This document shows positions 3,073 to 4,847 of a stretch of DNA of 10,942 bases, one piece after another. The number at the start of each line of letters is the position of its first letter. The first letter of the stretch is position 1. The notes beneath the pieces are model-generated. The model was not told the origin of the DNA, ran no database searches, and saw only the letters and a program-made list of their open reading frames with translations. A program made the translations under genes and the position numbers. Source of the DNA: Sedimentisphaerales bacterium (GTDB taxonomy: Bacteria > Planctomycetota > Phycisphaerae > Sedimentisphaerales > SG8-4); contig JAFGCA010000156.1 in the NCBI GenBank assembly GCA_016932895.1, forward strand, positions 1 through 10,942. Direction: 5' to 3'.

Positions 3073-3717
3073 CTATCGGAGATGCTCAAGAAAGCCCTTC
3101 AGTTCCGCAAGAGCGGGCGAGTCAAAATCCCAGTATCCCTTCTGCGCTGCCAATCCCAGCGCATCGACCGTATCAGTCTGAGCAGCCAGGAATACCTGAG
3201 CCCTGAAGACCTGCGCTTTCGCCTTTGCCATGTTCTTGGGCGCCGAAGGTAAGTCACCAACGCACGAAGCAAACTGCTCTACACAACGCATCGCTTCATG
3301 ACCTTCAACAGTCTTGAGGCACAGGTCTTCGAGCATCGTACCGTCAATTGTCTCACCGGGCATGACAAAAATGCCCACTCTGGGCCTGCCATCCGAAAAC
3401 ACCCCGTGCTCGCCAGGAGGAGTAAGTCCCACCCTTCTCACTATGTTCGCAATGCTCTCGAAAGCATTGTCCTGATCTTTGTCCCGAACGAGCGCCAGAT
3501 TCGTCACCCGCGAAGAGCCATCCGCCTCAAAGAACCCAGGCGCGCGAAGCAATGCGGGAAGCTTCTCCGGGAACTGATTCTTGCCTCCGACGGCCTCTAT
3601 CTGCACGTCCGCAAGATCAATGTGGCGCAGGAGCCTATCGAAGAAGTTCCGATCGTCCTCCCCCTCGACAGCCAACACGGTCCGCGCCGTGATGGTTCTC
3701 GCTTTCTGATTTGCCAC
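3073..3717 (-). CDS. DUF3226-like Toprim protein, putative nuclease of a two-gene defence cassette
   Basis: A 214-residue protein. I chose GTG at 3717 because a strong Shine-Dalgarno GGAGGT (3729-3724) precedes it by 6 bases; an upstream in-frame GTG at 3732 would overlap that site. Its first base is the last base of the upstream ATPase stop (TAGTG), so translation is probably coupled. Toprim-type signature residues: E18 in LAVEGEDDRNFF, then D79 and D81 in VRDKDQD. A GGKNQF motif at 44-49 and a G-x-FVMP...GTMLEDL block (about 115-132) are what I recognise as DUF3226. The C-terminal half is helical and ends GYWDFDSPALAELKGFLEHL. Toprim domains coordinate Mg2+ through these acids, and in OLD and PARIS systems they cut nucleic acid under control of the ATPase partner. 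Function here is inferred from fold and pairing. An RNA or DNA substrate cannot be told from sequence. Confidence 0.82.
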   Translation of the reverse strand: MANQKARTITARTVLAVEGEDDRNFFDRLLRHIDLADVQIEAVGGKNQFPEKLPALLRAPGFFEADGSSRVTNLALVRDKDQDNAFESIANIVRRVGLTPPGEHGVFSDGRPRVGIFVMPGETIDGTMLEDLCLKTVEGHEAMRCVEQFASCVGDLPSAPKNMAKAKAQVFRAQVFLAAQTDTVDALGLAAQKGYWDFDSPALAELKGFLEHLR

Positions 3718-4778
3718 TACCGCACCTCCCACTCGCTTTCCAAAGACTCAGCCAGCAATCCTCGCGTGTATTCTACCGCTCTGAATCTCTCATCTTTCCG
3801 CTCAATGCGAAAAAGTTTGGCCTCAGCCCCAAACAAATTGGCCTCTGCGTGATCGCTGAAAGCCCTGATGCACTCCATTGAGTGTGTACTCGCAAAAACC
3901 TGAACGTTTAGTCTTTGGGCCCAGTCGAAGATAGCATCCCACAGTTTGCCCATAGAAGCAGAGTCAAGACCGTTTTCGATTTCGTCGATCAGCACAACAC
4001 CATCCTGAAGATTCAGCATCGTTAAGGCAGTGCTCAAGAATTTGACTATACCACCACCCATGAGATTAACCGGAATGAGTTCAGGCGCTCCCGTATCGGC
4101 GTACAGCCATCCCTGAGGATCGCCGATTCGGAGATCCACAAGCGAGGGTTCGATTCTCTTCAGAAGACCTACTACCTCCGGAACCCCCTTCTTTCTCTGA
4201 ACCTCGCTGAACCGATCTCGCAGATCACCTCGCAAAGCCATGACGAAGCTCCCGCGTTTTGGGCGAGGAGAGCCATCTGCGCCACGATGCACCTGCAACT
4301 CTTCATCTTGCAGGAAAACCTCCGACACGATTGTGGTATCAAGGTCGCCTGGATCGACGTATTCAAGGCGAAGCCCATTTATCTCTCTACTCACATCCGA
4401 AGCCGACACCACGGTATCGAATGAACCCGGCGAATCAGAGGCAACTCCGTTCGACTTGAGATCCTCGTAGCGAGGCGCTATCCGGAGATATTGCTCGCCA
4501 ACCTCGGAGTCGTGGGCAGTAATCTCGATCGGGATGCTGGTATTCGTATTGTGAAAATACGTCGACCACAGCGCCGTGCTTATATATGGCAACCCTCTGA
4601 ACGCGTTGACGTTAAGTGGTAAGCGAGGGTTTGTCGGCCCGATGAGAAAGAACACGCCTTCCAAGAAGGTCGTCTTCCCACATGCGTTGTGCCCAACAAA
4701 CAGGTTCACTCTGCTGAGACCATCGACCTGCAGATCGGTGATGGCACGGAAGTTCTTTATTCTCACGCTCTTGAACAT
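3717..4778 (-). CDS. Compact AAA ATPase (ABC/SMC-like, AAA15/AAA21 type), partner of Toprim gene
   Basis: A 353-residue ATPase. ATG 4778 is preceded by TGAGG at 4790-4786. The N terminus FKSVRIKNFRAI is the usual opening strand of OLD/RecF-type ATPases. Walker A is GHNACGKT (29-36). A signature-like LMGGGIVKFLSTAL lies at 239-252, Walker B VVLIDEIENG at 261-270 with D265/E266, and the switch histidine H299 in ASTHS. The span between Walker A and the signature (about 200 residues) is short and lacks a long coiled coil, so it is not a Rad50/SMC arm protein. It has no Toprim of its own; that domain is supplied by the next gene, as in split OLD-family systems (PARIS AriA/AriB). Hand counts of six 60-base rows gave 43-58% GC against 62-65% in rows I counted in flanking genes, and AT-rich codons such as ATA and AGA occur, suggesting acquisition from elsewhere. 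Alternative: a housekeeping ATP-binding protein of the same fold. Confidence 0.85.
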   Translation of the reverse strand: MFKSVRIKNFRAITDLQVDGLSRVNLFVGHNACGKTTFLEGVFFLIGPTNPRLPLNVNAFRGLPYISTALWSTYFHNTNTSIPIEITAHDSEVGEQYLRIAPRYEDLKSNGVASDSPGSFDTVVSASDVSREINGLRLEYVDPGDLDTTIVSEVFLQDEELQVHRGADGSPRPKRGSFVMALRGDLRDRFSEVQRKKGVPEVVGLLKRIEPSLVDLRIGDPQGWLYADTGAPELIPVNLMGGGIVKFLSTALTMLNLQDGVVLIDEIENGLDSASMGKLWDAIFDWAQRLNVQVFASTHSMECIRAFSDHAEANLFGAEAKLFRIERKDERFRAVEYTRGLLAESLESEWEVR

Positions 4779-4847
4779 AGCTCAACCTCAGCATCACAAA
4801 GAGAACAAGTGAGCCGGACCGGATTAGGAGCCAAATCTCATAGGATC

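Follow-up and report, generated by a model that had tools for sequence, protein, structure and literature searches.

The locus considered here raises the question of what two overlapping genes, one encoding an ATPase and the other a Toprim protein, might do for the cells that carry them. The genes lie on the minus strand of contig JAFGCA010000156.1 (assembly GCA_016932895.1, Sedimentisphaerales bacterium), whose 10,942 nucleotides (nt) were analyzed and are called the window below. The pair is probably a mobile two-gene split-OLD immune module of the DUF3226 (PDC-M38) lineage, in which an ATPase would gate a Toprim nuclease to provide abortive defense. By analogy with known systems and from genomic context, a gated nuclease of this kind is the likeliest function. 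Behind this proposal stand the gene pair itself, its predicted folds, the conservation of its metal and ATP sites, the joint inheritance of the two genes, their mobility, and the defense genes that neighbor some relatives. The pair also gives shape to a split ATPase-Toprim lineage found across bacteria and methane-cycling archaea.

Organization and Family Assignment of the Gene Pair

The first gene (3717..4778, minus strand as for all features of the pair) begins with ATG and encodes a PDC-M38A-like, SMC/OLD-type ABC ATPase of 353 amino acids (aa) that matches Pfam AAA_15 (3.4e-16) and also AAA_21. The second (3073..3717) begins with GTG and encodes a 214-aa, PDC-M38B-like DUF3226 protein, a putative metal-dependent nuclease. 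An earlier reading of the sequence alone (the sequence-only reading) had described both open reading frames (ORFs) with a 1-base stop/start overlap, and this arrangement was found. Within TAGTG (3715..3719), one G is common to the ATPase stop TAG (3719-3717) and the Toprim start GTG (3717-3715), and translation of the two genes may therefore be coupled. The same 1-base overlap is seen again in 8/35 related loci, as called, and the two genes of relatives are joined by overlaps or separated by gaps of a few bases. An alternative Toprim start is open at 3732 and would give 219 aa; the length is 214 aa in all 8 best protein matches, the first of which is the window's own. Because of the Pfam matches (AAA_15 as above; DUF3226 at 9.7e-27) and the 253 Toprim relatives at E<=0.001 (the best 120 of 253 being listed), both ORFs look like genuine genes.

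The composition of the pair is foreign to its surroundings. Its guanine-cytosine (GC) content is 53.8%, versus 60.8-66.2% in 117 other segments of the same size from the contig, and third-position GC is 58.5 and 62.8% in the two genes versus 76.6-87.3% in six other genes.

Several known systems combine an ATPase with a Toprim effector, and the identity of the effector helps to tell them apart. The sequence-only reading had named it as DUF3226 rather than DUF4435. The score against the Pfam family (PF11536) is 94.5 bits, well above the gathering score of 27, and DUF4435 is absent among the Pfam matches at E<=1, as are RloB and AbiLii at that threshold in Pfam and PADLOC. Since the Toprim protein is DUF3226 and not DUF4435 or RloB, the pair is neither PARIS nor a RloB-type AbiL system. 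Its closest fit is with a catalogued PADLOC candidate defense family, PDC-M38, to judge from profile matches. The ATPase matches five PDC-M38A models (best PDLC04611, 5.1e-47), the adjoining Toprim protein matches the PDC-M38B models PDLC04623 (1.3e-13), PDLC04624 (2.9e-6), and PDLC04620 (5.9e-4), and the latter fit is poorer than that of the more typical relative L049 (3.6e-48). In the passages available from PMC12988326, PDC families are described as stemming from a guilt-by-embedding approach, and most as unvalidated. No paper on DUF3226, PF11536, PH0156, or PDC-M38 was found in the open-access literature, a search that covered few subscription papers and did not extend to supplements.

The PARIS-like label given by the sequence-only reading finds no support in that form, since other systems lie nearer. 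PARIS is similar in design, but the ATPase matches the AriA model of PADLOC at 5.8e-18, far more weakly than the AbiLi and PDC-M38A models, and the Toprim protein matches the AriB model at 0.029. Both window proteins are smaller, as had been noted: the AriA chain has 464 aa, and the chain taken as AriB, the second of 8ux9, has 306 residues. The lineage, which the sequence-only reading thought might be distinct, already has an entry in PADLOC as the candidate family PDC-M38.

AbiL (AbiLi plus AbiLii) likewise consists of an ATPase gene and a gene for a Toprim-like effector, but its effector is of the RloB type, with which AbiLii is grouped in the portion of PMC10440598 that was available. The window ATPase matches the PADLOC AbiLi model PDLC02336 at 1.6e-53, and three DUF3226-partnered ATPases (L040, L049, and L060) fit it at 1.3e-53 or better, whereas PDLC02335 is the best model for both of the RloB-partnered ATPases tested (1.8e-102 and 1.3e-80). 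Two real RloB genes match AbiLii at 7.4e-34 and 5.8e-24. Thus, PDLC02336 appears to catch DUF3226 partners and, despite its name, may mislabel PDC-M38 pairs as AbiL.

Conserved Residues and Predicted Folds

Motif counts were made over 38 pairs (the window, 35 loci, and 2 plasmids). In the ATPase motifs listed by the sequence-only reading, G29, N31, G34, and K35 of Walker A (GHNACGKT, residues 29-36, 4671..4694), the Walker B acidic pair D265-E266 (3981..3986), and H299 (3882..3884), which we take to be the switch histidine of the ABC fold, are each present in 38/38. For the Toprim protein, the same reading had named E18, D79, and D81. E18, the first metal ligand in a VEGxD motif (3664..3666), is kept in 36/38 and D79 of D79-x-D81 (3475..3483) in 38/38, but invariance of D81 did not hold, this position being mostly acidic (36/38; D in 20, E in 16, and N in 2). 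Two further residues that were not on the earlier list, E130 (3328..3330) in the first helix of the C-terminal helical part and K165 (3223..3225), are found in all 38. The metal site of the Toprim protein is kept across these pairs, and its loss, which the sequence-only reading had named as a ground for refutation, was not seen.

The predicted Toprim structure has an OLD-type fold with a helical C-terminal part, a feature shared with class 1 and class 2 OLD nucleases, and the ATPase is SMC/Rad50-like. With the two genes adjacent, these folds bear out the earlier claim of a split ATPase/Toprim module. From their positions, E130 and K165 are proposed to be the counterparts of OLD E508 and OLD K562. 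The profile alignment to OLD proteins, made with a usable ORF from 6/11 OLD loci tried, covers the first Toprim motif alone (35 columns, E 3.1e-4, probability 39%), and the remaining ligands (D79, E130, and K165) were matched to OLD by position and not by profile. A PDB sequence search with the single Toprim protein gave no match; a Toprim profile search reached 2p62 at 6.8e-5.

This resemblance to OLD brings in a second way in which the pair might work. In OLD class 1/2 nucleases and Gabija GajA, the ATPase and Toprim parts share one polypeptide, unlike those of the window, whose six flanking genes also have no helicase or reverse transcriptase family among their Pfam matches. The window proteins could form a stable, inseparable complex that acts as an ATP-regulated DNA endonuclease on foreign DNA, with no released toxin. 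Such a complex is possible but somewhat doubtful. The genes are split into two overlapping ORFs, as in PARIS and AbiL. GajA and AriB come within 1 Z of each other in the Toprim fold comparison, amid unrelated rows, and the fold does not tell the substrate. This is also a defense reading that overlaps the gated-nuclease proposal, and the likelihoods of the two are not exclusive.

Joint Inheritance and Distribution

A genome scan recovered 39 related loci. An upstream ORF is available in 36, and in 35/36 it encodes a homologous ATPase (E <=3.7e-32) whose gene adjoins or overlaps the Toprim gene; the contig ends beside L013, L017, and L039, leaving no room for one, and L038 is broken up. The 35 usable pairs span 12 phylum-level groups, including Planctomycetota, methane-cycling archaea, Bacillota, Nitrospirota, Gemmatimonadota, and one cyanobacterium. 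Further searches yielded 25 loci (L044-L068) with an ATPase upstream in 23, a count that includes L066, which is L001's own gene; L062 stops at a contig edge, and no ATPase was found at L048.

The partnership can also be traced from the ATPase side. In the phylum of L001, the ATPase profile matches 18/199 genomes (centre genome included), and a DUF3226-like ORF stands beside the ATPase in 20/20 leading loci (L116-L135) of those 18 genomes, with a weak partner in L127 (3e-6) and shortened partners in L129 and L134. Other profile matches are fragments or cut genes (L136 and L137) or repeat loci already counted (L138-L140 and L142), and L141 is a full ATPase with no DUF3226 neighbor. In Bacillota, 3/199 genomes match, of which one is the centre genome and the other two have fragments. 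At L120, the ATPase gene is interrupted by a stop and the adjoining Toprim gene is intact.

The ATPase and Toprim trees are in agreement (patristic r 0.888; 0/2000 permutations as high). Planctomycetota (8 rows plus the window) occupy one branch and methanogens (6) another, and Pseudomonadota, Bacillota, Rhodothermota, Acidobacteriota, and Gemmatimonadota each fall on more than one branch. The distribution is patchy, with DUF3226 in 25/392 genomes of L001's phylum (centre genome included). The genome of L030 (G008, an Acidobacteria metagenome-assembled genome) has 7 DUF3226 matches, three of them on long frames (328, 365, and 565 aa), which suggests fused or expanded versions of the domain.

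This pattern bears on whether the pair might instead serve housekeeping, as a DNA or RNA maintenance pair with an RNase M5-like or Cran1-like cell-cycle role. The SMC/Rad50-like character of the ATPase would suit such a role, and a cell-cycle role is reported for the archaeal OLD-family ATPase Cran1 (PMC12796447). Presence in so few genomes argues against it, as do foreign composition, lack of synteny, and carriage on plasmids, and a housekeeping function is very improbable.

Plasmids and Mobility

The pair is mobile, because it occurs on small plasmids, is present patchily, contrasts with its surroundings in GC content, and shares no flanks with its relatives except for epimerase paralogues. 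When the six flanking genes of the window were compared at 1e-10 with the ORFs found at the 39 related loci, several of which are short, the sole matches were these paralogues, in L029. The shared synteny expected of vertically inherited loci, which the sequence-only reading had named as evidence against a defense role, was otherwise not seen.

Plasmid records with a DUF3226 relative number 121, of which 115 are from Klebsiella, and the relatives have 22.6-24.2% identity (40 of 121 records listed). Three small plasmids were opened (L040, L041, and L043, from Klebsiella, Salmonella, and Raoultella; 4167, 4119, and 3793 bp), and in these 3.8-4.2 kb molecules most of the coding sequence belongs to the pair. 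The other genes, from tables that may be incomplete, are for Rop, mobilization, helix-turn-helix, or short hypothetical proteins. On one 244-kb plasmid, the pair has mercury resistance genes on one side and a Tn3-family transposase on the other. When E. coli genomes were searched at the DNA level for the Klebsiella pair, 9/5426 had it, on plasmids only. The intact pairs on such tiny enterobacterial plasmids lend themselves to tests in E. coli K-12.

Because the small plasmids opened carry little besides the pair, it might be an addiction module that maintains plasmids or islands, with the Toprim protein as toxin, the ATPase as antitoxin, and no role against phages. Two AAA-TOPRIM_OLD pairs have been tested as toxin-antitoxin systems in E. 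coli (PMC10440598, as far as its available passages go). Nevertheless, defense genes are found near chromosomal relatives, and an ATP-switch protein this large would be unusual for simple addiction, making this explanation unlikely.

Defense Genes Near Relatives

Neighbors of the 35 pairs (198 ORFs of >=90 aa within 4 kb) were compared with PADLOC at 1e-15. Lots of 85, 76, and 37 proteins matched 29, 82, and 54 families, respectively, and those listed (25 per lot) include type I and type III restriction, HmaA/B, SoFic, DISARM/BREX helicases, CARF-HEPN/Csx1, PDC-S04, PDC-S11, and PDC-S13. Genes 4-10 kb from the pairs are also defense-rich (91 families; 145 of 166 ORFs scanned) and were for this reason replaced as a control by random stretches. 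This control took 12 arbitrary stretches in three of the genomes, and its 111 ORFs matched 9 PADLOC families (SspA, DndA, two reverse transcriptase models, RmrA three times, mad3, and capP), none being of a kind listed above for the neighbors. Neighbors placed to a locus are REase_I (L026) and an HmaB-like protein (L028), and 8/10 neighbors picked as likely defense genes had no PADLOC match at 1e-20. Defense genes are thus associated with some relatives, as an association and not a measured enrichment. Defense neighbors, whose absence the sequence-only reading had named as a ground for refutation, are present to this extent, but the window's own neighborhood is not a defense island.

Proposed Function

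As we infer its operation, the module would begin with translation of the ATPase, followed by coupled translation of the Toprim protein from a ribosome site in the last ATPase codons. The ATPase might then bind the Toprim protein and hold it in a complex, either inactive or loaded, until a trigger from a phage or other foreign element shifts the ATPase state and frees its partner. Once free, the Toprim protein, presumably a two-metal phosphodiesterase, would cut nucleic acid, which could be host tRNA (as for PARIS) or DNA (as for OLD/Gabija). Cutting would halt the infection while the cell is sacrificed. The complex, its gating, the trigger, the substrate, and the abortive outcome are all proposed elements, with parallels in known systems. 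In the available portion of PMC12409363, the Toprim nuclease AriB stays sequestered by AriA until a phage trigger brings about its release, and passages of PMC3985639 report toxicity in E. coli for AbiLii of F. nucleatum.

Several points weigh against this proposal. No activity data were found for any DUF3226 protein. A DUF3226-like protein of solved structure, PH0156, exists, and DUF3226 is also matched in M. jannaschii. On the tree, phylum labels cluster more than by chance (14 changes versus a shuffled mean of 24.8), so the spread is in part vertical or regional. No relative occurs in phage records, nor was one found in IMG/VR by a single-protein scan, whose reach is limited to close relatives. 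The neighbor figures given above count families, not proteins or loci, and the models are redundant; the small control itself drew the matches listed for it. By name, the exopolysaccharide, AAA+, and lipoprotein genes that flank the pair in the window are not defense genes. According to the same passages of PMC3985639, L. lactis AbiLii is not toxic in E. coli, and F. nucleatum AbiLi failed to neutralize its AbiLii.

The ATPase Tail and a Probable Buried Ribosome Site

The last codons of the ATPase gene offer a clue to how the two proteins might be linked. They encode E351-V352-R353 (3720..3728), and a tail of the form E-x-R is present in 60/60 of a first set of DUF3226-partnered ATPases (EVR 43, EIR 9, ELR 4, EMR 3, and ETR 1). 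With 7 further ATPases, exact E-x-R-stop is found in 62/67, and an acidic-x-Arg sequence <=3 residues from the end in 67/67. The exceptions are D-x-R in L123 and L133, one added Ser in L129 and L131, and three added residues in L127, which has a weak partner. The background rate of such ends is 4/346 neighbor ORFs. The ends of ATPases beside RloB genes differ: none of 14 RloB-side rows, picked by the presence of a Walker A motif in an ORF of that short locus and representing 13 distinct genes (L071 and L073 are one locus), has E-x-R, and the full ATPase of L141 also ends differently. DUF4435 loci are mostly long or partial frames that allow no fair comparison. In the available passages on related systems, an E-x-R ATPase tail is not mentioned.

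The same bases overlap GGGAGGT (3724..3730), which resembles a Shine-Dalgarno site for the Toprim gene. Among the 60 ATPases, the tail Glu codon is GAG in 52/60 versus 25.3 expected from the same genes (relatedness not corrected), and this bias indicates that the tail bases probably double as the Toprim ribosome site. The tail Arg is encoded by all six Arg codons, and so at least this residue is held at the protein level. This variety counters the notion that the tail is a mere by-product of the ribosome site, although the GAG bias still fits a DNA-level reason, and both pressures may act on these codons. In the monomer model, the last three residues have a predicted local distance difference test (pLDDT) score <50, and a tail that is conserved yet unplaced is what would be expected of a partner-binding part.

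Tentatively, the acidic-x-Arg-COOH tail might be a latch that docks in the Toprim protein, possibly at its metal site, and has to be pulled out by the ATPase cycle for the nuclease to act, with the same codons serving as the Toprim ribosome-binding site. If so, latch and effector would be produced in step, and the pair would represent a new regulatory variant among ATPase-Toprim defenses, distinct from PARIS and AbiL. The near-invariant tail is a precise and cheap mutational handle on ATPase control of the nuclease; in the available portion of PMC10440598, prediction yielded no convincing interface for AbiL-type AAA-Toprim pairs.

Other Features of the Window

A GAGGT sequence (4785..4789, minus strand) precedes the ATPase ATG and also resembles a Shine-Dalgarno site. 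The window holds no RNA families or tRNAs, and its repeats are short two-copy ones only. Promoter-like sites (1 found versus 0.9 expected) and terminator-like sites (5 versus 2.5) were also counted. On one side of the pair, the plus strand carries two genes for AAA+ proteins and one for a PEGA lipoprotein; the opposite flank has genes for an NAD-dependent epimerase, a polysaccharide kinase that is Wzc-like, and a tetratricopeptide repeat (TPR) protein. The two AAA+ genes stand in tandem (73-1014 and 1044-2528, the second start being assumed at 1044), their translations look alike by eye, and they probably arose by duplication. The first weakly matches the model for the anti-phage protein IteA (74.6 bits versus a cut-off of 510).
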